From an uncultured Trichococcus sp. (GTDB lineage: Bacteria; Bacillota; Bacilli; Lactobacillales; Aerococcaceae), in the NCBI RefSeq assembly GCF_963667775.1, contig NZ_OY764015.1, positions 372,001 through 436,000 of the forward strand: 64,000 nt of DNA, in the 5' to 3' direction. Shown here in pieces: positions 31,430-44,702 of this stretch. The notes under the pieces are model-generated. The model saw nothing but the letters and a program-made list of their open reading frames with translations, had not been told where the DNA came from and did no database searches. A program made the translations under genes and the position numbers. Position 1 is the first letter of the stretch, and each line of letters opens with the position of its first letter.

Positions 31430-33865
31430 TTGAAACTCATCAATCCATGGGAAAACATCAAGATCAAAAAAATCGGCAACAAGGAAGTCATCCAAAATTT
31501 TGATGATGATATCCATCTGCTGTATGTATTGGTCGGGGAACTGTCGGTTGAATCCGAAGGCAGTTATTTGACTTTGCAAAAGGACGATTTTTTCATTCTG
31601 CATAAATCCAATTCGTATACATGCCATACAGGCGATTCGAAAGTTTTTCAGTTGTCATTGCAGTATTTTTATTCCGAAGAAGATGCATCCAACCCGTACA
31701 GCTACTATTTTACCGGAGATTCGGTCAAAAATACCCACAGCTCGGATATGCAAGTAACCTATCTGTTGAACCAATTGGTGGAATTATACATTTTTAAGGA
31801 ACAGAAGCGGATATCGGAGATTTTTGAGGTCTACTTCAATCTCATCAATACTCTGGAGAAGAAATATTTTGTGAAAGTAAAGCTTGAAGCAGATCGGAGC
31901 ATCAAGCAAAAAGTCGAGGAGGTCAAGTTTTACATAGATAACAACTTTGACAAGGAAATCCGCTTGTCCGATCTGGCCGGGAAGTTGTTCGTGTCGGAAC
32001 AGTACCTTTCCAAACTGTTTTCAAACGAAATCGGCTTGTCCCTCAGCGAATATCTGATCAGAAAACGTCTGGAAAAAGTGCGGAAAGATTTGTTTGAAAC
32101 CGAAAAATCTGTAACCAGCATTGCGTTTTCCGCTGGATTTTCCAACATCAATTCCTTCAACCGGCTGTTCAAAAAATACCAAGGGATGACCCCGAGTGAG
32201 TACCGCAGAGAAGCGAAAAAGGGTATCGAAATCCAATCTTCACCTTTTGCGATACCGAATGAAGAACTAACGGATCTGCAGAAGTACTTTGCGGAAGAGG
32301 AAGAAGGAAATAGTGCCGACAAGCTTAAAATTGATGTGTCAGAGGCTGAAGATTACGATTGCGATAAATATCTGATCAATCTCGGTTATGCGGGGGACCT
32401 GCTCCACACGTCGTTCTCCCAACAGATCCGATATACGCAAGAGCAGAATGCTTTTCGCTACGGCCGGATTTGGGGCTTGTTCAACAATGCCTTATTTGAA
32501 CAGGTTGGCGATGAATTCGACTTCACAAAAGTTGATGAAATCCTGCAGACGGTTCTCGATGCCGGGATGATTCCGTTTTTGGAACTTGGATTCAAAGGGA
32601 AACTGATACATGAAACCCACACAAAAATCATAAAAAAAGAACCGTTTGAGCTGAAGACCAACAGAATGGCCGGTATCTTACTCAGATTCACAACCTTTCT
32701 CAACCATTGCATCGATAAATACGGCGATGAGGAAGTCTCAAAATGGATCATCGAAATATGGAAACCGAACGCATTGGTCCTTAAGAACACGGATCAGGAA
32801 CAGCTATCCCTGATCGAGATGGATGACGAACAGGTAGATATTTCGCAGTATCCGCACTATATCCGTTATTTCAGTCAAATCAGCGAATCAATCAAACGTA
32901 TCGTTCCGGGAATGCAAGTAGGCGGCTGCGGGTTGAGTTTGGATATCGAACGGGGAGACATGCGGAATTTTCTGCGCAAATGGAAACAGGAAAAAGTCAA
33001 ACCGGACTTCATCAGCATCGGCATTTATCCGATTGATGAAATCAAACACGGTTTTGTTGTGGAGAAGCGTGCGAATCCGATTTCCCCCGATGAAGATTAT
33101 ATGCTGAATAAGATCAGGGACATCCGCACCTTGCTGGATGAATTGGATTTGGGTACAAAGTTGTACGTGACTGAATTCAACGTGACCATCCTGAATAGGG
33201 AAATCATCAATGATACGGCCTTCAAAGGCGCCTATATCCTGAAGAATATCCTTTCGATCCTGTCCTATTGCGATCTGATCGGGTATTGGCAATTGTCGGA
33301 TTTGACGGTGACCAGTTTCGATACAGCCAAAAAAGAAATCTTTGGCGGAACCGGCATCCTATCCAAAAACGGCGTCCCCAAAATCGGTTACTATGCTTTC
33401 AAATTTCTCAAGAAATTAGGTCCAAAAAGAATTTTCGCTTCCGAAAATCTGATTGTGACCAGAAAAGAAAAGCAATATCAGTTACTGTGCTACCATTACA
33501 GCCATTTGAATGCGACCTATTACTACGACACCAGCGGAGGCTTCCACAAAAACAATGCCTATGCCATTTTTGACAATGAACAGCCGCTTGATTGGACAAT
33601 TGAACTGAATGGTTTTGAAGCAGCCGGTAAATACCGGGTCATCAAGTACAGCATCGGGAAGAACAACGGTAATTTTTTGGAAGAGGTCAATGCGATCAGC
33701 CAATCCGATCATTTTGATAAAGAAATGATCCAATACCTGAAGCAAAAATGTGTGCCAAAGATCGAAATACAGACGCAGATCATCAGTGATGATAAATTAG
33801 TACTGGAAATCCACCTGTCTCCGTATGATATTTGCCTCTTTGACATCCAAAAAGTATCGGATTAG
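31430..33865 (+). CDS. AraC-type regulator fused to a GH39-like domain
   Basis: This 811-residue protein has three parts: a cupin sensor (residues about 1-130), an AraC double HTH (about 165-265; IRLSDLAGKLFVSEQYLSKL and SIAFSAGFSNINSFNRLFKK), and a GH39 beta-xylosidase-like barrel with C-terminal beta domain (about 320-800). In GH39 enzymes the acid/base motif is WNEPN; here the aligned stretch near 443 reads IEIWKPN, lacking that Glu, while the nucleophile-like Glu remains in YVTEFNVT near 579. The barrel is therefore probably a ligand sensor, not a hydrolase. Translation begins at TTG 31430 after AAAGAGGTGAT. It precedes the symporter and deglycosidase operon and likely activates them. Confidence 0.88.
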   Translation: MKLINPWENIKIKKIGNKEVIQNFDDDIHLLYVLVGELSVESEGSYLTLQKDDFFILHKSNSYTCHTGDSKVFQLSLQYFYSEEDASNPYSYYFTGDSVKNTHSSDMQVTYLLNQLVELYIFKEQKRISEIFEVYFNLINTLEKKYFVKVKLEADRSIKQKVEEVKFYIDNNFDKEIRLSDLAGKLFVSEQYLSKLFSNEIGLSLSEYLIRKRLEKVRKDLFETEKSVTSIAFSAGFSNINSFNRLFKKYQGMTPSEYRREAKKGIEIQSSPFAIPNEELTDLQKYFAEEEEGNSADKLKIDVSEAEDYDCDKYLINLGYAGDLLHTSFSQQIRYTQEQNAFRYGRIWGLFNNALFEQVGDEFDFTKVDEILQTVLDAGMIPFLELGFKGKLIHETHTKIIKKEPFELKTNRMAGILLRFTTFLNHCIDKYGDEEVSKWIIEIWKPNALVLKNTDQEQLSLIEMDDEQVDISQYPHYIRYFSQISESIKRIVPGMQVGGCGLSLDIERGDMRNFLRKWKQEKVKPDFISIGIYPIDEIKHGFVVEKRANPISPDEDYMLNKIRDIRTLLDELDLGTKLYVTEFNVTILNREIINDTAFKGAYILKNILSILSYCDLIGYWQLSDLTVTSFDTAKKEIFGGTGILSKNGVPKIGYYAFKFLKKLGPKRIFASENLIVTRKEKQYQLLCYHYSHLNATYYYDTSGGFHKNNAYAIFDNEQPLDWTIELNGFEAAGKYRVIKYSIGKNNGNFLEEVNAISQSDHFDKEMIQYLKQKCVPKIEIQTQIISDDKLVLEIHLSPYDICLFDIQKVSD

Positions 33866-34033
33866 TTAAGATTGTGCCATACAAATTTACGCAGAAATAA
33901 AAGATAGCGTTTTCTTGTTATAGAAGTACCATGAATTTAAACGCTGCCAAAGTAGAGCGATGCATCATTCAGATATACACTATGTATGTAATCGATTGCA
34001 AGGTTTTCATCATTCTATTTTGGAGGGGTTTAC

Positions 34034-35428
34034 ATGGCAGAAGGATTAGTGAAAGAGAACAGGCTCGCTGAAAAAGTGAAGCCGAAGATGTCCAAATGGA
34101 CGATGATGATTTATGGATTGGGTGATTTGGCAAGTCAATTTGTTTGGACATTCGTAGGGACTTATTTGACAGTATTTTATACAGACATCGTGGGTCTTGC
34201 TCCTTTAGCCGTTTCGATGATCATGTTGCTGGCGCGCTTGTGGGATGGCATCAATGATCCAATCATGGGGATGATCGCTGAAAGGACCAGAAGCAAGTTC
34301 GGCAGATTCAGACCTTATGTCCTGTTCGGAGCTCCGTTTTTGGCGCTGTTCAGTGTTTTGACCTTCACGAGTCCTTTCGGGAACGGAACGGCCGGGGTCA
34401 TTTGGGCAAGTGTGATCTATACGATTGCCGGAATGCTCTATACGCTGGTGAACATCCCTTATGGTGCGCTTGCGGCAGTAATGACCGAAGATGCGAATGA
34501 ACGAAATGAATTGAATGCATGGCGTTCCATCGGGATGAATGTAGGGATGATCGTTGTAAACTCATTGTCTGCAGTCTTGATGTTGCGCTTTTCTGAAGGA
34601 TCGGCTGTTGCCGACGGACGGGGCTATTTTACTACTGCGATGATTTATGCACTGATTTCATTGCCTATGTTTCTGGGCGTTTTCCTGACATCAAAAGAAG
34701 TTATCCAACCGACCAACCAGCAAAAAGTCTCCATGAAAGAAACGATGCGCAATATATTCGGCAACAAATATTTGATGATCCTATTTTTGATCATGGTCCT
34801 GCAGATGACTGCCTTCATGGGTCGGATCGCTGTGACGACCTATTACGTGATTTATTGTTTGGGAGCGTTCTCTTTGATCGCTATCCTGATGACTATCCCT
34901 TCAATCGGCGGCGCAGCCTGCTCCTTGCTGATCGTTCCGTTGGTGAAAAAGTTCGGCAAACGGAATGTCCTGATGGTGAGTATGATTCTGCAGGGGATCG
35001 GCTTACTGGTTGTCTATTTCAGTGATTTCGGGAATATCCGGATGATTATCGCAGGACACATCATTTTTGGTATCTTCAATATGGGCTTCCCGATTACGTT
35101 ATCCTTGGTAGCCGATTCGGTGGATTATCAGGAGCTGAAAAGCGGTGTCCGGACGGATGGAACGGCTTATGCCACTTATGGATTGGCGACAAAAATCGGT
35201 AGTGCGATCGGTGCTGCTTTCGGCGTGATGCTGCTGTCTTATTATGGTTATCAAGCCAATATGGAACAGACGCTTGCTACAAAGGACGGCATCAACACAA
35301 TCGTGAACTTGTATCCGGCGATTCTATTCTTCTTGGGTGCAGCAGCTTGTCTGTTGTGGGATCTTTCCGATAAGGACTCGGAAGGAATCCGCAGAGAGCT
35401 GGACGAACGCCGTCAAATACAGGATTAA
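34034..35428 (+). CDS. GPH family glycoside:cation symporter
   Basis: This 464-residue protein is a glycoside-pentoside-hexuronide symporter of the MFS fold: IYGLGDLASQFVWTFVGTYL, the cation-site region LLARLWDGINDPIMGMIAER, and RSKFGRFRPYVLFGAP are diagnostic. TTGGAGGGG precedes ATG 34034. It lies between the AraC-GH39 regulator and the oxidoreductase/deglycosidase operon, so it is the likely importer of the glycoside used there. About 170 upstream bases separate it from the regulator, enough for its own regulated promoter. Confidence 0.93.
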   Translation: MAEGLVKENRLAEKVKPKMSKWTMMIYGLGDLASQFVWTFVGTYLTVFYTDIVGLAPLAVSMIMLLARLWDGINDPIMGMIAERTRSKFGRFRPYVLFGAPFLALFSVLTFTSPFGNGTAGVIWASVIYTIAGMLYTLVNIPYGALAAVMTEDANERNELNAWRSIGMNVGMIVVNSLSAVLMLRFSEGSAVADGRGYFTTAMIYALISLPMFLGVFLTSKEVIQPTNQQKVSMKETMRNIFGNKYLMILFLIMVLQMTAFMGRIAVTTYYVIYCLGAFSLIAILMTIPSIGGAACSLLIVPLVKKFGKRNVLMVSMILQGIGLLVVYFSDFGNIRMIIAGHIIFGIFNMGFPITLSLVADSVDYQELKSGVRTDGTAYATYGLATKIGSAIGAAFGVMLLSYYGYQANMEQTLATKDGINTIVNLYPAILFFLGAAACLLWDLSDKDSEGIRRELDERRQIQD

Positions 35429-35436
35429 GTAAGAAG

Positions 35437-35465
35437 GGCTGGCTCAAAAAATGAGTCAGCCTTTT
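35437..35465 (+). terminator. Intrinsic terminator after the symporter gene
   Basis: GGCTGGCTCA and TGAGTCAGCC with a 5-base A loop, followed by TTTT, directly after the symporter stop. Confidence 0.9.
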
Positions 35466-35514
35466 CATTGCGGTTTGGATGTATGGTTATCTGGTCCGGC
35501 TTCGAATTCTTGGT

Positions 35515-35649
35515 GAGATTCCCCGCGAAAATGGTTTTCGCGGGGAATCTCGTGCTGTCTGCGGACGTTTTTCCCCGCCAAGGCGGGTTTGACGGTGTAT
35601 TTGACTATGTTTTGAACTCATTTTCCCCGTCAACTAGGTTTTGACGGGT
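35515..35649. repeat. Hairpin array F: three units, exact 52-nt period, different arms
   Basis: CCCCG-headed units start at 35521, 35573 and 35625. The first is a 17-bp perfect hairpin (GAGATTCCCCGCGAAAA, TGG, and its complement). The third has CCCGTCAA and TTGACGGG; the second is imperfect. Size (about 25 bases), number (three) and step (52) mirror arrays A-E, though the arms are unrelated in sequence. The array fills the gap between the symporter and the deglycosidase operon. Confidence 0.8.
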
Positions 35650-35685
35650 TATTTTTAACCCCGCATAAAATTCAATTCTCAAATA

Positions 35686-35742
35686 AAAGAGGCTGTATCA
35701 GGTCAGAAAGTACTATTCTGGTTTGATGCAGCCTTTCTTTTG
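35686..35742 (+). terminator. Second terminator-like hairpin before the deglycosidase operon
   Basis: AAAGAGGCTGTATCA and TGATGCAGCCTTT pair with two mismatches, and the loop contains a second stem CAGAA...TTCTG. A T-rich run follows. No gene lies between the previous terminator and this one, so it may be a relic or a leader structure. Confidence 0.6.
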
Positions 35743-35904
35743 TTATTAGAAGAATAAAATAGTGTGGTTTGTATTTCACTATTAAACAACTCTATTTTTT
35801 TAATGATAAATATGTGTGATTTAGTTTTATTCATAAAGTTGAGAGCAAAAGCGCAATTCATAATAGAATAATCTTGTAAGCGATAACCAAAAGGAGGAAA
35901 TAAC

Positions 35905-37002
35905 ATGAATAAATTAAAATTCGGAATCATCGGCTGCGGAGGAATCGCCAACGGGAAGCATTTCCCGGCATTGGCTAAATTATCGGATAAAGTGGAAATC
36001 GTGGCTTTCTGTGACACGGTCATCGAACGGGCTGAAAAAGCGGCCAAGGAATATGGTACAGCGGATGCTTTAGTGACGGAAGACTACAAAGCGCTTTTAG
36101 CTAGAGAAGACATTGATGTCATCCATGTGTTGACACCGAATATTTCCCACTCATACATCACGGTTGATGCCTTGGAGGCAGGGAAACATGTCATGTGCGA
36201 AAAACCGATGGCGATCAACTATGCAGAGGCAAAAGAAATGCTGGATGCTGCTCAACGCACCGGCAAAAAATTGACGATCGGCTACCAGAACCGTTTCCGT
36301 GCCGATTCCTTAGCTACTTACGATGCTTGCAGCAAAGGCGAATTGGGCGATATCTACTTCGCTAAGGCACATGCCATCCGCCGCAAAGGCGTTCCTACCT
36401 GGGGAGTCTTCCCTGATAAATCAAAACAAGGCGGTGGCCCGCTGATCGATATCGGCACGCATGCCTTGGACTTGACGCTTTGGTACATGAACAACTACAA
36501 GCCTAAATCAGTACTAGGATCAACTTATCAAAAACTGAAGGATAATCCGATGGCAAACATGTTCGGCCCTTGGAATCCGGATACTTTCGAAACGGAAGAC
36601 TCGGCTTTCGGACTGATCAAAATGGAAAACGGCGCGACCATCTTCCTGGAGGCTGCTTGGGCGCTCAACATGATCAATCCGAAAGAGGCTCAAGTCACGC
36701 TTTGCGGAACTGAAGGCGGAGCAGAAATGTTCGGAAAAGCTTTCATCGATCAAGGCTATGTCGTCTTCAATAAAGCAGCCCACAATCAATTGGAACAGAC
36801 GCAGCCATCCGATGCCGGCGGTGTGTTCGGATTCGAAGGGGCTACGTTGGAACAACGTGATGCTGAAGCCAAACAGTGGGTGGATGCGATCCTGAATGAC
36901 ACGGACCCAATGGTGAAGCCTGAACAGGCAATCGTCGTGACCCAAATCCTGGAAGCAATCTACAAATCAGCTGAGACAGGACAAGTCGTTGAATTTGATT
37001 AA
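35905..37002 (+). CDS. Gfo/Idh/MocA oxidoreductase, likely glycoside 3-dehydrogenase
   Basis: This 365-residue oxidoreductase has FGIIGCGGIANGKHFPAL at the N-terminus, CEKPMAINYAEAK, and the catalytic GGGPLIDIGTHALDL. Length and motifs match enzymes of the DgpA type that oxidise C3 of a glycosyl group to a ketone. It is the first gene of a run that continues with two deglycosidase alpha/beta pairs, which need just such a 3-keto glycoside as substrate. AAGGAGG precedes ATG 35905. Assignment to C3 oxidation is by context. Confidence 0.88.
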   Translation: MNKLKFGIIGCGGIANGKHFPALAKLSDKVEIVAFCDTVIERAEKAAKEYGTADALVTEDYKALLAREDIDVIHVLTPNISHSYITVDALEAGKHVMCEKPMAINYAEAKEMLDAAQRTGKKLTIGYQNRFRADSLATYDACSKGELGDIYFAKAHAIRRKGVPTWGVFPDKSKQGGGPLIDIGTHALDLTLWYMNNYKPKSVLGSTYQKLKDNPMANMFGPWNPDTFETEDSAFGLIKMENGATIFLEAAWALNMINPKEAQVTLCGTEGGAEMFGKAFIDQGYVVFNKAAHNQLEQTQPSDAGGVFGFEGATLEQRDAEAKQWVDAILNDTDPMVKPEQAIVVTQILEAIYKSAETGQVVEFD

Positions 37003-37019
37003 GTTTGGGAGGAACAGTA

Positions 37020-37895
37020 ATGGAGCATAACATTAAGCGTGGCGTTTCTGCATATAGCTACAACAAAGTATTCGGAGTCTCAATGGATCTTGACGACATT
37101 ATGCAAGACATCTGCGACACAGGAGCTACTGGAATTGAAATCTTGGCAAATTCTCATATCGTCAAATATCCTGATGTTGCTGAAGCTTGGATTGATGACT
37201 GGCACCAAAAATTGAATCACTTTAAATTGGAACCAGCGGAATATGGTCACTGGGTTGAATCCAGGTTATATAAAGGTAGGGAACTCACTACTAAAGAAAG
37301 CATCGATATGCTTGAGCGAGATTTCAAAATTGCAAATAAGCTAGGATTTAAGGTTTTAAGAACAAAATTAGGCGTTATTGATGATACCCTTACCCCTGTA
37401 TCCAACTGGCGTGAATTCATCAAAGGCGCACTGGGATTGGCAGAAAAATATGATGTCCGCATGTGTCCTGAAATCCATAGTCCAACTATTTTAGATTCGA
37501 GAATGATTCAGGATTATGTGGAATTCATCGAAAAAGAGAATACTGAATTTTTCGGATTGAATATTGACTTCGGTATTTTTCAGACCGGAGATAATGCTCT
37601 AGTAGGATTCGGTGAAAATGATTTCGTGGGCCCTCCATGCGAACACAGCAAAGTTGAAGAGCTGGTGCCGCTTTTGAAGTATGTTTATTGTTGCCATGCA
37701 AAATTTTTAAGGATGGATGAAAATTTTCGTGAAGTTGTTATTCCATATGAAGAGATCATAGAAACACTCATTAAGCATAACTGGGAAGGCTACTTGATCA
37801 GTGAGTACGAAGGTGCAAAAGCAGAAGTGACAGGACATGCGTCTGATCAGGTCAAACGGCATCAAATCATGTTGAAAAACTTATTAGGGAAGTGA
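37020..37895 (+). CDS. TIM-barrel protein, likely C-glycoside deglycosidase alpha subunit (copy 1)
   Basis: This 291-residue protein of the AP-endonuclease-2/sugar isomerase family starts at ATG 37020 (GGGAGGAACAG before). Candidate metal ligands are Glu151 (CPEIHS), Asp183 (LNIDFGIFQ), His226 (YCCHAKFLRM) and Glu262 (ISEYEGAK). The gene is followed by a DUF6379 partner. In known C-glycoside deglycosidases this alpha subunit and the small beta subunit together cleave the C-C bond of 3-keto C-glycosides. Base composition is more AT-rich than copy 2 and the flanking genes, suggesting separate origin. Confidence 0.83.
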   Translation: MEHNIKRGVSAYSYNKVFGVSMDLDDIMQDICDTGATGIEILANSHIVKYPDVAEAWIDDWHQKLNHFKLEPAEYGHWVESRLYKGRELTTKESIDMLERDFKIANKLGFKVLRTKLGVIDDTLTPVSNWREFIKGALGLAEKYDVRMCPEIHSPTILDSRMIQDYVEFIEKENTEFFGLNIDFGIFQTGDNALVGFGENDFVGPPCEHSKVEELVPLLKYVYCCHAKFLRMDENFREVVIPYEEIIETLIKHNWEGYLISEYEGAKAEVTGHASDQVKRHQIMLKNLLGK

Positions 37896-37905
37896 GGGAT
37901 AGCGT

Positions 37906-38313
37906 ATGCTGGAAAAAGAATGCATTCAATCCAGAAGGTTTAAAAATACAGTAGTGGATCAGGAAGTAATTGGTTTTCAGTTTGATATTCGCCTGATGTA
38001 TTATAGAGGATTATGGTTATCCCAGCTTAGACCCATCCATATAAAAGTTGACGGAGAAGCAGTCAGATTAGAGGACATTTCCTGGGAAATAAACGGAAAG
38101 CTATACAAACAAGATGAATTGAAGGGAATTGGGGATATCCAATGGAATGTTTTGGAGCCAGCTTCCATCCATGTAAATGTCTTAGGCGGCTTAACAACAG
38201 GATATCACGAAATTGAAGTTGATCACAGATTCAGTTCGTCATATATGCCCCCTAATATGGACGAAGTACTGAGTTATGGGAATCATAAAAGGAAATTGCT
38301 GTTAGTTTCGTAA
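37906..38313 (+). CDS. DUF6379 protein, likely deglycosidase beta subunit (copy 1)
   Basis: This 135-residue beta-sandwich protein matches the small partner of C-glycoside deglycosidases: RLMYYRGLWLSQLRPIHIKV, a central DISWEINGKLYKQDEL, and LGGLTTGYHEIEV. It shares its whole layout with the protein at 39381-39770. It starts ten bases after the alpha gene stop (GTGAGGGATAGCGT gives the site). It is AT-richer than copy 2, like its alpha partner. Confidence 0.83.
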   Translation: MLEKECIQSRRFKNTVVDQEVIGFQFDIRLMYYRGLWLSQLRPIHIKVDGEAVRLEDISWEINGKLYKQDELKGIGDIQWNVLEPASIHVNVLGGLTTGYHEIEVDHRFSSSYMPPNMDEVLSYGNHKRKLLLVS

Positions 38314-38357
38314 TGATCCGTCGACCACTAACCACTAACAACTAGGAGGAAATAATA

Positions 38358-39368
38358 ATGGCAAGAATCAAAACTGCTGTCAGTCTTTACAGCCTGCAGG
38401 ACGAATATCTGAACAAAAGAATGAACTTGGAAGACCTGATGAACTTACTGAAAGATCTTAACGTCGAAGGCGTGGAAATGTTGCCGGATCAGATGATCAA
38501 AAATGCGCCGCATCCATCCCAGGACGAAGTTGATCACTGGCACGCGCTGCTTGATCAAACCGGCGTGAAACCGGTCATTGCCGATGTCTTCTTGAACTCC
38601 AACCTCTACAACAACCGCATGCTGACGAAAAAAGAATGCATCGATTTGCTGATCCAAGAAATCAAGCAGGCAAACCGTTTGGGCATGAAAATGATCCGCT
38701 TGGTTTCGATGGTCCCTTACTGGGTCTGCGAACCATTGCTGCCTTACTGCAAAGAGTACGACGTTACCATTGCCCTGGAAATCCATGCAGGGATGGCTTT
38801 CGACGGCCCGGAAACGCTCGCGTTCATCGAAGAGATGAAACGTCTGGACTCCCCGTATATCGGACTGGTCATCGACACCGGGATCTTCTGCAGCAGATTC
38901 CCACGCGTTGTCCGTGCCTACGAGGTCAACAATGGCGCCAGCCCGGAAATGTTCGATTACCTGGATAATTTGTTCGAAAAGGGTACGGATCTGCACCGCG
39001 TCGTCAAAGAGAACGGTGGCACTTATCCGGATGATTTTAAACAAGTCATCAAAACCAAAGAAGACCACATGTTTGCGCCGTTGTGCGATGGCTATGAAAA
39101 CTATCCATTCTCAGTGATGGATGAATACATGCCGTACATCAAGCATTTCCATATCAAAATGTTCGAAATGACTCCTGAGGGACCGGAATACTCGATGGAT
39201 TATAAAGGCTTACTGGAGTATCTCCATGAGCACCAGTACGATGGCTATGTGGCGACTGAATACGAAGGCAACCGCTTCATCTTACCTGGTGAGCCGATGC
39301 AGGAAATCCAGCAAGTCATCGCCAACCAGCAATATCTGCAAGCTTGTTTGAAAGAAATCCAAGGGTAG
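38358..39368 (+). CDS. TIM-barrel protein, likely C-glycoside deglycosidase alpha subunit (copy 2)
   Basis: This 336-residue member of the same family as copy 1 has candidate metal ligands Glu141 (IALEIHAGMAF), Asp173 (GLVIDTGIFC), His265 (KHFHIKMFEM) and Glu301 (YVATEYEGNRF). It is longer than copy 1 by an inserted stretch around residues 180-235. AGGAGG precedes ATG 38358, and the beta partner follows at 12 bases. Two different pairs in one operon suggest two substrates or two bond positions. Confidence 0.85.
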   Translation: MARIKTAVSLYSLQDEYLNKRMNLEDLMNLLKDLNVEGVEMLPDQMIKNAPHPSQDEVDHWHALLDQTGVKPVIADVFLNSNLYNNRMLTKKECIDLLIQEIKQANRLGMKMIRLVSMVPYWVCEPLLPYCKEYDVTIALEIHAGMAFDGPETLAFIEEMKRLDSPYIGLVIDTGIFCSRFPRVVRAYEVNNGASPEMFDYLDNLFEKGTDLHRVVKENGGTYPDDFKQVIKTKEDHMFAPLCDGYENYPFSVMDEYMPYIKHFHIKMFEMTPEGPEYSMDYKGLLEYLHEHQYDGYVATEYEGNRFILPGEPMQEIQQVIANQQYLQACLKEIQG

Positions 39369-39380
39369 GGGGAAGAAAAG

Positions 39381-39770
39381 ATGTTTGATAACAATGTATT
39401 CAAAAAAGATACCTGCAAAAATATCGTAGAAAACGGCACGACAATCGGTTACGGACTGCAGACACTGATCACTTACTACCGTGGGATTCCTTTATCGATG
39501 GTAGAATTCGTAAAAGTCGCTGTCGATGGCGTTGAGGAAGAACCAACCGCAATCCAGATTTCGATCGATGAGGAAGATTGGTTCACTCTGAAGGAAGCTG
39601 CGACAGTGTCTTCCTACAAATGGGAATACGGCGAACCCCTGCATATCCGCGTGATGAAAGAGGGCGGATTGGCGAACGGCAACCATGATGTGGCTCTGAC
39701 GATCGCCACAAGAACGGCCTATATCCCGGTGCCGTTGGTCGGAATGAAAGAGCGCACAGTCACGATATAA
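39381..39770 (+). CDS. DUF6379 protein, likely deglycosidase beta subunit (copy 2)
   Basis: This 129-residue protein shares with copy 1 the pattern LITYYRGIPLSMVEFVKVAV, then AIQISIDEEDWFTLKE and GGLANGNHDVALTI, ending in a conserved beta strand. Start ATG 39381 follows GGGGGAAGAAAAG. It pairs with the alpha subunit immediately upstream. Confidence 0.84.
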   Translation: MFDNNVFKKDTCKNIVENGTTIGYGLQTLITYYRGIPLSMVEFVKVAVDGVEEEPTAIQISIDEEDWFTLKEAATVSSYKWEYGEPLHIRVMKEGGLANGNHDVALTIATRTAYIPVPLVGMKERTVTI

Positions 39771-39817
39771 GCAAAATACAGGATCGATGACGATCATGAA
39801 AGATAGGAGCAATAGAT

Positions 39818-40873
39818 ATGTTGAAATTTGGTATCATCGGTTTCGGATTCATGGGTCAAACCCATGCCGAAACCATCAATAAATTTGATTTCGCGGAATT
39901 GATCGCAGTCTGCGACATCAACAAGGATCAACTCGGACATGCAGCGGAAGGTGTGGGAACGCACCTGATGGCGGATGAGTTGTTGGCGAACGACGAAATC
40001 AACACAGTCATCATCGCAGTCCCGAACCATCTGCATTTGGAAATGGTCAAAAAAGCTGCGCAAGCAGGAAAAGACATCATCGTCGAGAAACCGGCCGCGA
40101 TGAATGCGGAAGAATTCAAGGAAATGATGGCCGTAACGGAAGCCGCCAAAGTGCGCTTCACGGTCCATCACCAGCGCCGCTGGGACAAAGACTACCGCCT
40201 GATCAAGGAAGTCGTCGACAGCGGTACGCTCGGAGATGTCTACACGATCAAGAATGCTTTGTACGGCTTCAACGGTAATATGCACGATTGGCATATTTAT
40301 CCGGAGTTCGGTGGCGGCATGCTCTACGATTGGGGCGTACATCTGCTGGATCAGATGCTCTGGATGATTCCAGGGAAGTTGACGACTGTATATGCGGATG
40401 TCCGCAATGTGATCAACAAAGAAGTCGATGATTACTTCAATATCCAGCTGCATTTTGACAGCGGCATCAGCGGACAAGTCGAGCTGGGCACGTATTACCT
40501 GACCGACAAGGAAACTTGGTTCGAACGCCACTGGTTTGTCGGAGGCAACAAAGGCAGCGCCTATGTCGATGGATTCCATCCGGAAGGCAAAATCGTCCGG
40601 ACATCAGCGTTGCTGAAGAACGTTCCCGGAAAAATCACAATGACCGCTGCCGGCCCGACCCGCTCATTCGGTCCAGCTCCGGAAGGACGTCTTGTTTCGG
40701 AGCCGCTTCCGGAAGTCACTGTCAATCATGACATGTTTTTCGAGCACTACAACAAATATGTGAACGGTGAAGAAGAATTGGTTGTGCAACCCGCGCAAAT
40801 CCTGCGCTTGATGAGCCTGCTTGATGCTATCCGCGTATCCGCGAAAGAGCACAGATCCGTAACATTCGAATAA
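39818..40873 (+). CDS. Gfo/Idh/MocA oxidoreductase (second in the operon)
   Basis: This 351-residue oxidoreductase has GIIGFGFMGQTHAETI, IVEKPAAMNAEEFKE and GGGMLYDWGVHLLDQML (the catalytic His retained). It is distinct from the enzyme at 35905-37002. It may reduce the 3-keto sugar released after cleavage, or oxidise a second glycoside. A ribosome site (GATAGGAGC) precedes ATG 39818. Confidence 0.9.
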   Translation: MLKFGIIGFGFMGQTHAETINKFDFAELIAVCDINKDQLGHAAEGVGTHLMADELLANDEINTVIIAVPNHLHLEMVKKAAQAGKDIIVEKPAAMNAEEFKEMMAVTEAAKVRFTVHHQRRWDKDYRLIKEVVDSGTLGDVYTIKNALYGFNGNMHDWHIYPEFGGGMLYDWGVHLLDQMLWMIPGKLTTVYADVRNVINKEVDDYFNIQLHFDSGISGQVELGTYYLTDKETWFERHWFVGGNKGSAYVDGFHPEGKIVRTSALLKNVPGKITMTAAGPTRSFGPAPEGRLVSEPLPEVTVNHDMFFEHYNKYVNGEEELVVQPAQILRLMSLLDAIRVSAKEHRSVTFE

Positions 40874-40906
40874 CCATTGATAAATCGTCGAAAGAAGGAA
40901 AAAAGT

Positions 40907-41821
40907 ATGAAACTAGGACTGGTTACCTCGATCCTTGATCAAAGTGATTTCGAGGAAATGATCGATATTGTTGCTGAGAACGGGCTGGATTGCGTAGAAG
41001 TCGCTTGCTGGCCCGCAGGAAAAGCGGAGCGCCGCTATGCCGGTGTATCCCATATCGATACGGAAAGCCTCACCCAAGAAAAGGCCGATGAATTGAACGC
41101 GTATGCTTCCAGCAAAGGTGTGGAAATTTCTGCTTTGGCCTACTATCCGAACCCATTGGACGAAAACCCAGAAAAACGCCGACTGGCCATCGATCATCTC
41201 TATTCGGTCATCGATGCGGCTGCGTTGCTGGAAGTCAACATGGTCACGACCTTCATCGGGCGCATGTCTTCAAAGACCGTCAGTGAAAACTTGGCGGAAG
41301 TCGCGAAAGTCTGGACACCGATCGTGAAGCATGCGGAGCAAAAGAACGTCAAAATCGCAATCGAAAATTGCCCGATGCTGTTCACGGAAGACGAGTGGCC
41401 GGGCGGACAGAATCTCATGACGACTCCAGCCTTATTCCGGAAAGTATTCGAGCTACTGGACAGCGATCATATCGGCTTGAACTTCGATCCTTCCCACTTT
41501 GTCTGGCAGCAGATGGATTACATCAAACCGCTCTACGAATTCAAGGATAAATTATTCCATGTCCACTACAAAGACATCAAGGTTTATCCGGATAAATTGG
41601 CGGATGTCGGCATCATGGCGACACCTTTACAGTACATGAGCCCGAAACTGCCTGGCTTGGGCGACGTTGATTGGGGCAAGTATGTCTCTGCTCTGACGGA
41701 CATCGGCTATGCCGGCTATACCTGCATCGAAGTCGAGGATAAGGCATTCGAGAAGGACTATGCCGCAGTGAAGACATCCGTCCGACAAAGCGCACACTAT
41801 TTGAGGAATTTTGTTCAGTAA
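40907..41821 (+). CDS. Sugar phosphate isomerase/epimerase (TIM barrel)
   Basis: This 304-residue xylose-isomerase-like barrel has metal ligands in IAIENCPMLF (Glu), LNFDPSHFVWQQ (Asp, His), LFHVHYKDIKV (His) and TCIEVEDKAF (Glu). It lacks a DUF6379 partner and is closer to ordinary sugar epimerases (for example 3-keto-sugar epimerases) than to the two alpha subunits. ATG 40907 follows AAGAAGGAAAAAAG. It is the last gene before a hairpin at 41863. Confidence 0.88.
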   Translation: MKLGLVTSILDQSDFEEMIDIVAENGLDCVEVACWPAGKAERRYAGVSHIDTESLTQEKADELNAYASSKGVEISALAYYPNPLDENPEKRRLAIDHLYSVIDAAALLEVNMVTTFIGRMSSKTVSENLAEVAKVWTPIVKHAEQKNVKIAIENCPMLFTEDEWPGGQNLMTTPALFRKVFELLDSDHIGLNFDPSHFVWQQMDYIKPLYEFKDKLFHVHYKDIKVYPDKLADVGIMATPLQYMSPKLPGLGDVDWGKYVSALTDIGYAGYTCIEVEDKAFEKDYAAVKTSVRQSAHYLRNFVQ

Positions 41822-41836
41822 GCCTGCTTACTTGAT

Positions 41837-41865
41837 TTGAAACAAGGATAAACCAATAATATAAA
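41837..41865 (+). promoter_or_regulatory. Promoter-like sequence before the ROK gene
   Basis: TTGAAA at 41837-41842 and TATAAA at 41860-41865, 17 bases apart, lie directly before the hairpin at 41863-41914. It could give separate expression of the kinase and phosphatase. Confidence 0.55.
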
Positions 41866-41914
41866 AAGGTGATGTGGAATACTCGGCTTCAGGGGTATTT
41901 CGCATCCTTTTTTT
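41863..41914 (+). terminator. Hairpin between the deglycosidase operon and the ROK gene
   Basis: AAAAAGGTGATGTGGAATAC and GGTATTTCGCATCCTTTTTTT pair with a one-base bulge and small mismatches, followed by a T-run, so it looks like an internal terminator ending the seven-gene unit. The ROK ribosome site (AAAAGGAGA) begins right after it. Confidence 0.7.
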
Positions 41915-41930
41915 AAAAGGAGAACATAAA

Positions 41931-42884
41931 ATGGCTAAAAAAATGATCGGGATCGACATCGGCGGAACGGAAATCAAGTTCGCCCTGATCGATGTGTACG
42001 GTAACATCTCAAAAAAATGGAAAATCAAAACGGAGACGGCTGACAACGGCAACCATATCCCGAATGCCATCATCCGCGCCATCAATGAAGAGATTTTGAA
42101 CGGAACTGACGGCACGAAAGACATCATCGGTATCGGCATCGGCGTTCCGGGTCCGATTTCCCAGAACGGGGAATTGGTCGTAAAGGCCGTCAACTTGGGA
42201 TGGTCGGACATGCCATTGAAATTGGTGATCGAGAAGGAATTGCAGCTGCCGGTCATCCTGCTCAACGATGCCAATGCGGCGGCTTTGGGTGAAATGTGGA
42301 AGGGAGCGGCCAGAGGAAAAGCGAATCTGGTGTTTGTGACTTTGGGAACCGGAGTCGGAGGCGGCATCATCTTGAACGGCGAGGTCCTGAACGGCACCCA
42401 TTCATCCGGCGGGGAAATCGGGCATATCCCTGTCCAATCACAAGAGCAGCGGGTTTGCGGATGCGGCAACATCAACTGCCTGGAGACCTATTCATCCGCG
42501 ACCGGTTTGCTGAAGACGATGAGCATCATCGATGAAAAGAAGCAGCTGACGAAGGAAGGATTCACAACCATCGATATTTTCGACTGGCTCAAAGAAGGCA
42601 ATGCATTGGCTGAACAAGCCATCCAAAAAACAGTCACGCATTTAGGCTTTGCCTTGGCAGGAATCATGAACACCATCGATGTGGAAGAGATTGTTGTCGG
42701 CGGCGGGCTTTCCGAAGCGGGCGACTTATTGTTGGAACCATTGAAGGCGGTCATCGATCGGCATGTGTTTCCGGAAATCAGGGGCAATTACGCTGTGAAA
42801 AAGGCGGAACTCGGCAATGATGCCGGCATTTATGGCGCTGTGTACGCGTACTTGACGGCACAACAGCATCCAAACGAGCGTTAA
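41931..42884 (+). CDS. ROK family sugar kinase
   Basis: This 317-residue ROK kinase (glucokinase type) has the phosphate motif IGIDIGGTEIKFALID, catalytic Asp in ILLNDANAAALGE, the LGTGVGGGIILNG segment, and the zinc site CGCGNINCLETYSSA. ATG 41931 follows AAGGAGA. It would phosphorylate the glucose or related sugar liberated by the deglycosidases and returned to C3-reduced form. Confidence 0.94.
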   Translation: MAKKMIGIDIGGTEIKFALIDVYGNISKKWKIKTETADNGNHIPNAIIRAINEEILNGTDGTKDIIGIGIGVPGPISQNGELVVKAVNLGWSDMPLKLVIEKELQLPVILLNDANAAALGEMWKGAARGKANLVFVTLGTGVGGGIILNGEVLNGTHSSGGEIGHIPVQSQEQRVCGCGNINCLETYSSATGLLKTMSIIDEKKQLTKEGFTTIDIFDWLKEGNALAEQAIQKTVTHLGFALAGIMNTIDVEEIVVGGGLSEAGDLLLEPLKAVIDRHVFPEIRGNYAVKKAELGNDAGIYGAVYAYLTAQQHPNER

Positions 42885-42903
42885 GAAGGATCAGGTGAAC
42901 GGC

Positions 42904-43701
42904 ATGATAAAATTGATCGCATTGGACCTGGATGGCACGCTTCTGAATTCGGACCATGGGATATCGGAAGCGAACAAAGAAATGATACAAGTACACAAGG
43001 AGCTCGGCTGCAGATTCGTGCTTTGCACCGGCAGACCGTTTATCGGCATCACAGCCATCATCGAAACGTTGGGGTTGGAAGGACAGGGCTATGCCGTCAG
43101 TTTCAACGGTTCGGTGATCCATGATTTGGCCAGCAACGAAATCGTCCACAACCGGCCACTGCCTTTTCAGGATTTGTTGGAAATAGACCGGCTTAGCCAG
43201 AAGATTGGCGTGGATTACCACATCCAGAGCACCGCAGGCATCTTCACCACAAAACACGACATCAATGTGCATACCGCCTTCGACAGCTGGCTGAACAAAT
43301 CGCGCATAAATGTGAGGAAACTTGAGGATCTGCACAGCACTGCCATCAACAAAGTGCTGTTTGTCTCAGAACCAGCCCGGTTGGACCAAAAAATCGCTGC
43401 GGTGCCCGATTACTTCCGCAGGAAATATAATCTGATGAAAAGTCTGGATTGCTTTTTTGAATTCTTGGACAAGCGGGCGAATAAAGGGAGCGCATTGAAT
43501 GTGGTCGCGGATAGACTCGGGATCCTTCCGGAAGAGGTCATGGCGATCGGCGACAACGACAATGACGTGTCCATGCTTGCTTATGCAGGCATCAGCGTCG
43601 CGATGGGGAATGGTTCCGAAAAAGCGAAAGCGGCCGCTGATTTCGTCACAAAATCCAACGACGAGGACGGGGTTGCTTATGCTTTGGAGAAGTGGGCGTG
43701 A
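42904..43701 (+). CDS. HAD family hydrolase, Cof type
   Basis: This 265-residue HAD IIB phosphatase has IKLIALDLDGTLLNSD (catalytic Asp pair), VLCTGRPFIG, a lid domain (residues about 85-190), and MAIGDNDNDVSMLAYAG. ATG 42904 (AGGTGA just before) is preferred, with GTG 42895 in frame. It follows the ROK gene by about 20 bases. Likely a sugar-phosphate phosphatase; substrate unknown. Confidence 0.92.
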   Translation: MIKLIALDLDGTLLNSDHGISEANKEMIQVHKELGCRFVLCTGRPFIGITAIIETLGLEGQGYAVSFNGSVIHDLASNEIVHNRPLPFQDLLEIDRLSQKIGVDYHIQSTAGIFTTKHDINVHTAFDSWLNKSRINVRKLEDLHSTAINKVLFVSEPARLDQKIAAVPDYFRRKYNLMKSLDCFFEFLDKRANKGSALNVVADRLGILPEEVMAIGDNDNDVSMLAYAGISVAMGNGSEKAKAAADFVTKSNDEDGVAYALEKWA

Positions 43702-44030: not shown

Positions 44031-44702
44031 GTGGATGATACATCTTTGCTGTACGCAAAAGCTCATAAGCAGAATTTTGTTAAAGAAGTCATTTTAGATA
44101 AGGTAATGGTTTCAGATAAGGTTGCTATTTTCATGGCGGGTAGCCCAGGGGCTGGTAAAACTGAAGTAGCGACTGCCTTAGCGGAACTATCGGACAATCT
44201 GTGCATCATTGATGCTGATGAATTTCGCAGTCAATTTCCTGATTACGATGGATCAAATTCCAGTGACTTTCAAAAAGGTGCTTCTTGGCTAGTGGATCAC
44301 GTATTTACCCATCTTTTGAAAGAAGGATATTCTTTTATTCTTGATGGAACTTTTGCAATAGGCAAATCTAGTCAGAATATTCAAAGAGCGATAAAACGGA
44401 ATTATGCAGTGTCACTCTACTATGTCTACCAAGATCCTTTTATCGCTTGGCAGTTCACGAAAGAACGTGAAAAAGCAGAAGGTAGATTTGTACCGAAAGA
44501 GCGGTTCATTAATGCCTACTTTAAATCGCGTGAAAATATAGCAAAAGTTAAAGAAATTTTTGGAGATGCGATTGAATTAATTGTTATCTTCAAAGACTAT
44601 GAGAACAAAATATCAGAAGTGTTGGAAGATGTTGAAAACATAGATTTGATTTTACCAAAACAATACACGGTTGAAGAATTGGAGGAGAATCTGGATGGTT
44701 GA
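44031..44702 (+). CDS. Zeta toxin family protein
   Basis: This 223-residue kinase-fold protein has Walker A MAGSPGAGKTEVA near residues 40-52 and the substrate-site acid in CIIDADEFRSQFPDYDG. ILDGTFAIGKS and a conserved Arg/Lys region (FTKEREKAEGRFVPKERF) follow. Zeta toxins phosphorylate UDP-N-acetylglucosamine. Start GTG 44031 follows AAAGGAG. No epsilon-type antitoxin precedes it; instead a 53-residue gene overlaps its 3' end. A fragment of a second copy survives at 15484-15609. Confidence 0.9.
   Translation: MDDTSLLYAKAHKQNFVKEVILDKVMVSDKVAIFMAGSPGAGKTEVATALAELSDNLCIIDADEFRSQFPDYDGSNSSDFQKGASWLVDHVFTHLLKEGYSFILDGTFAIGKSSQNIQRAIKRNYAVSLYYVYQDPFIAWQFTKEREKAEGRFVPKERFINAYFKSRENIAKVKEIFGDAIELIVIFKDYENKISEVLEDVENIDLILPKQYTVEELEENLDG

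Follow-up and report, generated by a model that had tools for sequence, protein, structure and literature searches.

Aryl C-glycosides such as puerarin, orientin, mangiferin and carminic acid resist ordinary glycosidases, and to our knowledge few bacteria are able to cleave them. Here we describe a gene cluster that is very probably a catabolic locus for such compounds. It comprises eleven plus-strand genes within positions 31430-43701 of a 64,000-nucleotide window (bases 372001-436000 of the one-contig genome, 3,315,642 bases, of an uncultured Trichococcus sp.). Every gene that an earlier note on this DNA had named was recovered as an open frame at its position.

The closest described cleaving enzymes are EuCGD (DfgAB) of Eubacterium cellulosolvens (PDB entries 7bvs, 7dre and 7exb), PuCGD of the dgpABC system of strain PUE, which acts on puerarin, and the complex deposited as 'P581a DgpC1/DgpB1' (9m3b). 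The closest oxidoreductases are 'P581a DgpA2' (9m37) and 'W974-1 DgpA1' (9m3d); the strain names P581a and W974-1 were not found in the searched passages of PMC10539306. The product of C-glycoside deglycosidase (CGD) action is 1,5-anhydro-D-erythro-hex-1-en-3-ulose, i.e. 2-hydroxy-3-keto-glucal (PMC8563793; PMC13273386). DgpA follows a ping-pong mechanism in which 3-oxo-glucose turns the bound NADH back into NAD+ (PMC11239390), and NAD+ regeneration by DgpA with 3-oxo-glucose is also described in PMC10539306. Genomes with more than one CGD have been described before: C. scindens is reported to have four dgpBC sets and C. decagia six (PMC11170127).

The enzymes of the Trichococcus locus are of an already known kind; what stands out is the host, the added deglycosidase pair and a candidate hydratase. 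The locus places a predicted ability for C-glycoside cleavage in Trichococcus, for which no paper also mentioning 'C-glycoside' was found in the literature searched, and it names a candidate for the hydration step of C-glycoside catabolism.

The two predicted deglycosidase pairs

The locus contains two pairs of TIM-barrel (alpha) and DUF6379 (beta) genes, and their likeness to C-glycoside deglycosidases, proposed in the earlier note, is borne out by PF19906 matches of the beta subunits and by alpha subunits 49% and 59% identical to solved CGDs. The beta subunits match PF19906, "C-glycoside deglycosidase beta subunit" ('CGDB'), with E values of 5e-34 for pair 1 and 2.1e-34 for pair 2 (116.9 and 118.2 bits, respectively, against a cut-off of 27.6). 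Counting this genome, PF19906 is present in 4 of 398 genomes sampled from the phylum and in 9 of 395 sampled from the order; for the family the count is 5 of 76 and for the genus 4 of 13, and none of 14 control genomes has a match. The finding of the pairs is not due to chance.

Assigned among four alpha references (copied from HMMER printouts; the solved alphas 8qrz, 9m3a and 7dnm lie outside this set), pair 1 is of the EuCGD kind, its alpha subunit showing 48.6% identity to the EuCGD alpha (7bvs_A) and no more than 27% to any of the remaining three. The best PDB match of its beta subunit is DfgB (E 8.2e-28), with identities of 41.8% to DfgB over 122 columns and 42.2% to DgpB over 102 columns. 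The alpha subunit of pair 2 is 58.7% identical to 'P581a DgpC1' (9m3b_A, E 2.4e-129), with no other reference in the set exceeding 32%, and its beta subunit is 56.6% identical to 9m3b_B ('P581a DgpB1'). The lid region is present in the pair 2 alpha and absent from that of pair 1, as in EuCGD. The predicted reaction logic and fold are those of PuCGD, although the window alphas are only ~25% identical to the PuCGD alpha. The arrangement differs from that of EuCGD in that pair 1 is accompanied in its operon by pair 2, which is of a different kind, and from 'P581a DgpC1/DgpB1' in the addition of the EuCGD-kind pair.

Residue positions of the alpha subunits were mapped onto the PuCGD numbering (PMC8563793). 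The metal ligands E, D, H, K and E correspond in the alignment to E151, D183, H226, K228 and E262 in pair 1 and to E141, D173, H265, K267 and E301 in pair 2, and the catalytic base His and the helper Glu to H153/E264 and H143/E303, respectively. These seven residues are those mutated or named as catalytic by Mori et al. 2021 (PMC8563793). The earlier note had named the absence of the catalytic His or of metal residues in a structural alignment as evidence that would speak against a deglycosidase; at the level of the sequence alignment, 7 of 7 are kept in both alphas. The E/H/D/H/K/E/E set is complete in all four alpha subunits of the genome (two in the window and two in a second locus), and all seven residues are kept in 27/27 alpha frames of the aligned loci, a count that includes repeat extractions of three genomes and the two frames of the second locus. 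In the beta subunit, the aglycone-activating tyrosine is Tyr39 in PuCGE (PMC13273386). The second Tyr of the YYRG motif is Y33 in both window betas, and YYR is also found in pairs 3 and 4 of the second locus.

The assignment of the two window pairs as C-glycoside deglycosidases of two different kinds, with predicted activity, is supported by these similarities. The system described in the earlier note as doubled does have two pairs, but they are not copies of each other: the alpha subunits share 29% identity and each is closest to a different solved CGD, which rules out the duplication of one pair, and one of the pairs is a cassette (see below). That both would act on the same substrates, as their common operon and family might suggest, is very unlikely given the same divergence; moreover, EuCGD acts on C6 and PuCGD on C8 glycosides (PMC8563793), so that branches can differ in regiochemistry. 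A specificity for the branch of pair 2 was not found in the literature searched.

Oxidoreductases and the proposed route

The pairs are flanked by two Gfo/Idh/MocA oxidoreductases, as the earlier note had recognized, and the locus agrees with solved C-glycoside systems in its pairing, in its gene order and in both oxidoreductases. The best PDB sequence match of the 35905 product is 9m3d ('DgpA1 from W974-1', E 2e-221), followed by 7xr9 (DgpA, E 2.8e-140), and that of the 39818 product is 9m37 ('P581a DgpA2 and isoorientin complex structure', E 6.9e-178). Both are supported as predicted DgpA-type glycoside 3-oxidases.

In the proposed route, the GPH symporter would import the glycoside and a DgpA-type oxidoreductase with bound NAD would oxidize its sugar at C3. 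Either of the two metal-dependent alpha/beta deglycosidases, according to the aglycone and the attachment position, would then split the C-C bond in a beta-elimination-like reaction, setting free the aglycone and 2-hydroxy-3-keto-glucal. The 40877 barrel would add water to give 3-keto-glucose, which a DgpA-type enzyme would reduce to glucose with the NADH left from the oxidation step, so that each turn would supply the oxidant for the next. The ROK kinase would convert glucose to glucose 6-phosphate, while the AraC/GH39 sensor would switch transcription and glucose would probably repress it via catabolite-responsive element (cre) boxes. The import-oxidise-cleave-phosphorylate order of the earlier note is kept in this scheme, with hydration and reduction inserted before phosphorylation and the final reduction probably carried out by the oxidoreductases. 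For the oxidoreductases and deglycosidases the scheme rests on family membership, solved relatives and conserved residues; C-glycoside transport, the hydratase step, the kinase substrate, regulation and the matching of pairs to substrates are what we infer.

Two observations weigh against a use for C-glycosides. DgpA1-type genes with 62-64% identity occur in 5 of 9 Trichococcus genomes that have no CGD, so that such a gene is no proof of C-glycoside use. In addition, PuCGE also eliminates 3''-keto-phlorizin, an O-glucoside (PMC13273386), and O-glycosides may therefore be substrates; D3dgpA likewise oxidizes both C- and O-glycosides (PMC11239390). The locus could then serve mainly for O-glycosides, through C3 oxidation and elimination of O-linked aglycones, with C-glycoside cleavage as a side activity, and a CGD-less sister locus of the same genome, with DgpA1-like, ThuA-like, barrel, DgpA2-like and ROK genes, would be a plausible O-glycoside version. 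We consider this unlikely, as cleavage of C-C bonds is the part played by the CGD pair and its beta subunit, the closest PDB match of the DgpA2-type enzyme was deposited in complex with the C-glycoside isoorientin, and O-glycosides can be cleaved by ordinary glycosidases without such machinery.

A candidate hydratase

For the step from the CGD product to 3-oxo-glucose, the enzyme of the puerarin pathway was described in 2023 as 'not identified yet' (PMC10539306), and a 2026 paper leaves the hydration to 'the same or another lyase' (PMC13273386). The third barrel of the locus (40877), which the earlier note had called epimerase-like, is present as described there, but is best read as a candidate 2-hydroxy-3-keto-glucal hydratase, an assignment that we favour by a modest degree over that of an unspecified epimerase. 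Its PDB sequence matches are 2zds (4.8e-14), the hydratase AtHYD (8ro4, 1.5e-6), 3wqo and IolE (3cny); 8ro4 is the best match with a named function, outscored by 2zds, which carries none. A DPSHFVxQ stretch is common to the barrel, 2zds and 8ro4, and the longer DPSHFVxQxMDY is shared with 8ro4. AtHYD is the 2-hydroxy-3-keto-glucal hydratase of Agrobacterium, and it has the fold and the metal-site pattern of the 40877 barrel as well; with ~17% identity in the structural alignment it is at best a distant functional counterpart. The predicted fold of the barrel fits (predicted local distance difference test score, pLDDT, 72.4; predicted template modelling score, pTM, 0.79).

The distribution of the gene points in the same direction. 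Barrel homologues with at least 56% identity are found in 10/12 CGD-bearing genomes and in 1/33 others, with a Fisher value of 2e-7 that is only indicative, because 24 of the CGD-negative genomes were hand-picked from the listed negatives, 2 of the 33 negatives are less than 65% complete, the genomes are related, and one of the positives (G282) has a partial and weak CGD beta match and its barrel on another contig. One exception, G490, has two barrel copies of 38-41% identity adjoining its CGD pair.

Several points count against the hydratase assignment. In a density functional theory study, adding water to the cleavage product is energetically uphill (4.59 kcal/mol), and the authors question whether this is a single step catalysed by a single gene product (PMC10539306). 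A Foldseek search with the barrel model places AtHYD at rank 7, sugar 3-epimerases at ranks 3-6 and the 3-keto-glucoside 4-epimerase YcjR at rank 35; as far as the model goes, the search does not separate hydratase from epimerases, so structure does not decide. The barrel is missing from one genome with three CGD beta genes (G697), and another (G068) carries the barrel without a CGD beta. With sugar 3-epimerases and YcjR placed near AtHYD in this search, the barrel may instead be a 3-keto-sugar epimerase or isomerase, hydration being left to the lyase itself, to several enzymes or to a spontaneous reaction. This alternative has a real, if lesser, chance of being correct; it has against it that the best function-named PDB match is a hydratase with the DPSHFVxQxMDY stretch and that the barrel gene is present in most CGD loci inspected.

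The hydratase assignment can be carried further, in a proposal that we put forward tentatively and that falls somewhat short of probable: the 40877 family, together with a 73% identical partner in the second locus, would be the dedicated hydratase of anaerobic C-glycoside catabolism, in a redox-closed pathway with swappable cleavage cassettes. Such a hydratase would close the DgpA loop, since DgpA uses 3-oxo-glucose to restore NAD+. If this is true, the 3-keto-glucose formed would be the oxidant for the next C-glycoside, no outside electron acceptor would be needed, and phosphorylation of glucose by the ROK kinase would pull the uphill hydration along. The four CGD pairs of this genome, each nearest to a different solved CGD and all served by common modules for oxidation, hydration and phosphorylation, would then represent a plug-in architecture that widens the substrate range, the exchangeable cassettes being of the EuCGD, P581a, PuCGD, 8qvc or ThuA-like kinds.

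In G068, the 62% homologue of the candidate hydratase (L040, 8877-9791) has as neighbours ABC sugar transporter-like frames, named from reading only, and a Gfo/Idh-like gene. In G697, one CGD alpha gene (L038, 8187-9129) is split over two overlapping frames and is probably broken.

Organization of the locus

The features of the locus are collected in Table 1. For the last three genes, the translation starts are probably ATG codons inside the called frames, at 40907 (barrel), 41931 (ROK) and 42904 (HAD).

Table 1. Genes and other features of the locus, in window positions.
Feature	Position	Strand	Basis or remark
AraC-type regulator fused to GH39-like domain	31430..33865	+	HTH_18 6.8e-23; Glyco_hydro_39 1.3e-35
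GPH-family sugar/glycoside:cation symporter	34034..35428	+	TIGR00792, 357.5 bits vs cut-off 231.35
DgpA1-type Gfo/Idh/MocA oxidoreductase	35905..37002	+	predicted glycoside C3 oxidase / 3-keto-glucose reductase
Pair 1, predicted CGD alpha, EuCGD/DfgA kind, without lid domain	37020..37895	+	TIM barrel
Pair 1, predicted CGD beta, DfgB kind	37906..38313	+	PF19906, DUF6379 gene
Pair 2, predicted CGD alpha, 'P581a DgpC1' kind, with lid domain	38358..39368	+	TIM barrel
Pair 2, predicted CGD beta, 'P581a DgpB1' kind	39381..39770	+	PF19906, DUF6379 gene
DgpA2-type Gfo/Idh/MocA oxidoreductase	39818..40873	+	PDB sequence match
Xylose-isomerase-like barrel, candidate 2-hydroxy-3-keto-glucal hydratase	40877..41821	+	PF01261 E 1.7e-39
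ROK-family sugar kinase, predicted glucokinase	41874..42884	+	TIGR00744 (ROK glucokinase subfamily) 265.6 bits, cut-off 260.35
HAD (Cof-type) phosphatase	42895..43701	+	PF08282 E 2.1e-66
Cassette with pair 1	36997..38331		BLAST against L012
cre-like palindrome directly 5' of symporter gene	33986..34001		pattern match, both strands
cre-like box 5' of DgpA1-type gene	35874..35888	+	TTGTAAGCGATAACC, one mismatch to pattern

Two terminator-like hairpins (35626-35648 and 35689-35735) lie between the symporter and the DgpA1-type gene, so that the symporter may form a unit apart from the catabolic genes; the case for this split is weak because the scanned region contains 17 hairpins of this type where 13.0 are expected. 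Directly downstream of the operon, at 44031-44702, a Zeta-toxin-family protein is encoded (PF06414, E 1.1e-42). No sign of descent from a phage or virus was seen: a megablast of 35905-43701 against phage records gave no match, and the scan of viral contigs with the pair 1 alpha, in which close relatives only are detectable, gave no relative.

The pair 1 cassette and the distribution of the gene set

When the window was compared by BLAST with a contig of genome G009 (L012), the match ran to 36996 and resumed at 38332, with 99% identity on both flanks; the contig has 16 bases in place of the 1,335 bases of the window that hold pair 1. Pair 1 is present in T. alkaliphilus, T. patagoniensis and a further contig, L022 (proteins 95-99% identical), and absent from all six Enterococcus loci compared. 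Records of T. alkaliphilus B5 and T. patagoniensis DSM 18806 contain pair 2 as well as pair 1. The simplest history would be that Trichococcus gained the cassette once and the SX930 lineage lost it once, recombination being possible as well.

The genes of two contigs filed under other names, L012 (MUZD01000007.1, 'Sedimentibacter sp. SX930') and L022 (JAFGJC010000392.1, candidate division CSSED10-310), are near-identical to those of Trichococcus, which speaks for faulty labels or bins. The name SX930 is probably in error, and the small CSSED10-310 contig is probably Trichococcus DNA. NCBI taxonomy places Trichococcus in Carnobacteriaceae.

Orthologous loci with one pair are found in Enterococcus raffinosus (two), E. 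avium, E. pallens, E. florum and Enterococcus sp. MJM16; in these the symporter, the oxidoreductases, pair 2 and the barrel are 74-90% identical to those of the window, the symporter relative being 77-80% identical in 6/6. These loci differ in having no pair 1 and no HAD gene adjoining ROK, and in lower identities of the ROK kinase (57-61%) and the regulator (50-54%); no HAD frame is listed next to ROK in any of the six, and L018 has one of 31% identity ~6 kb further on. The eight-gene order (regulator, symporter, DgpA1, alpha, beta, DgpA2, barrel, ROK) is kept in 5/6 of them, and in the sixth (L018) the regulator frame lies ~5 kb further upstream.

A plasmid protein search with the pair 2 alpha gave 20 records: five are E. 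raffinosus plasmids (0.98-1.19 Mb) with 84.5-85.1% identity, and the remaining 15 are below 60%. The one E. raffinosus plasmid inspected carries, in this order, genes for a regulator, an MFS protein, a Gfo/Idh/MocA oxidoreductase, a TIM barrel, a DUF6379 protein, a second Gfo/Idh/MocA oxidoreductase, an isomerase and a ROK protein. Trichococcus thus shares the gene set with chromosomes and megaplasmids of Enterococcus, while the presence of the cleavage cassette varies within Trichococcus. Plasmid carriage and the presence in 4/13 Trichococcus genomes fit a spread by horizontal transfer.

Other loci in the same genome

The genome carries four PF19906 matches, two in the window and two in a second locus (locus B, ~2,689,826-2,707,510; L005 9826-19559 and L006 14-7510) that follows an rRNA operon and a tRNA array. 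Locus B has its own AraC/GH39 regulator, a barrel (73% identical to that of the window), pair 3, a SnoaL-like gene, DgpA2-type (72%) and DgpA1-type (59%) genes, pair 4 and a HAD gene, and further PTS EIIC, MFS, ROK, HAD and two GH32 genes. The closest of the four references is PuCGD for the alpha of pair 3 (46%) and 8qvc for that of pair 4 (45%), so that within this set the four pairs of the genome fall to four different references. In the other 12 of the 13 genus genomes, PF19906 counts do not exceed the pairs of the window locus; outside the genus, G654 (L037), from the same taxonomic order, has its genes arranged almost as in locus B.

A third, CGD-less locus (3,295,239-3,304,697; L032 5239-14697) contains DgpA1-like (61%), DgpA2-like (36%) and ROK (41%) genes, a distant barrel (28%) and a gene of the ThuA family (PF06283, E 1.4e-39), together with a LacI-type regulator and an ABC transporter, the last two named from reading the sequences. 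Proteins of the ThuA-like type take part in the breakdown of 3-keto-disaccharides. With a ThuA-family gene where the other loci have a CGD pair, and with the DgpA1-type genes of CGD-free Trichococcus genomes, this locus suggests a common framework in which the cleavage parts can be exchanged.

Regulation

The dedicated regulator of the earlier note is indeed an AraC-type protein at the start of the locus, to which the glycoside hydrolase family 39 (GH39) domain has to be added. This domain reads EIWKPNA where the beta-xylosidase 1px8 has EIWNEPN, while the TEFN motif is present. The [WF][NS]EP motif is found in 0 of 25 listed regulator-like frames, repeat extractions included. An active glycosidase is thereby ruled out, as the catalytic acid/base Glu of the NEP motif is absent, and the domain is read as a sensor of a sugar or glycoside ligand. 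The script pattern for the second Glu, run without a positive control frame, was unmatched in 11 of the 25 frames, and no claim is therefore made on this residue outside the Trichococcus loci.

Four cre-like boxes were found in the window against 1.86 expected, and 12 of 100 shuffles reach four; the count is not significant, so that boxes identified by counting alone were rejected and their repeated position in related loci is the sole support. A TGTAATCGATTACA-like palindrome stands directly 5' of the transporter gene in 4/4 Trichococcus loci inspected, including those where the transporter differs (35% identical). With the exact pattern, TTGTAAACGTTTACA-like palindromes are found 5' of the transporter in 4/6 Enterococcus loci, being missing 5' of the symporter in L017 and L018, and boxes 5' of the DgpA1 gene in 4/6 (L015-L018); no box at all was found by this pattern in the Lachnospiraceae locus L019 or in locus B (L005). 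Judged by the cre consensus, these boxes are presumably CcpA sites, through which glucose would probably repress the locus. Such repression would be in keeping with the reduced C-deglycosylation reported for E. faecalis W12-1 in the presence of glucose and starch (PMC6537369), and with a report in which mangiferin was converted by faecal samples only when carbohydrates were absent (PMC12101588).

In T. alkaliphilus (L013, 4096-5562) and T. patagoniensis (L014, 4150-5562), a different GPH symporter, 35% identical to that at 34034-35428, adjoins the regulator, and the DNA homology of both loci with the window stops at the cre-like palindrome.

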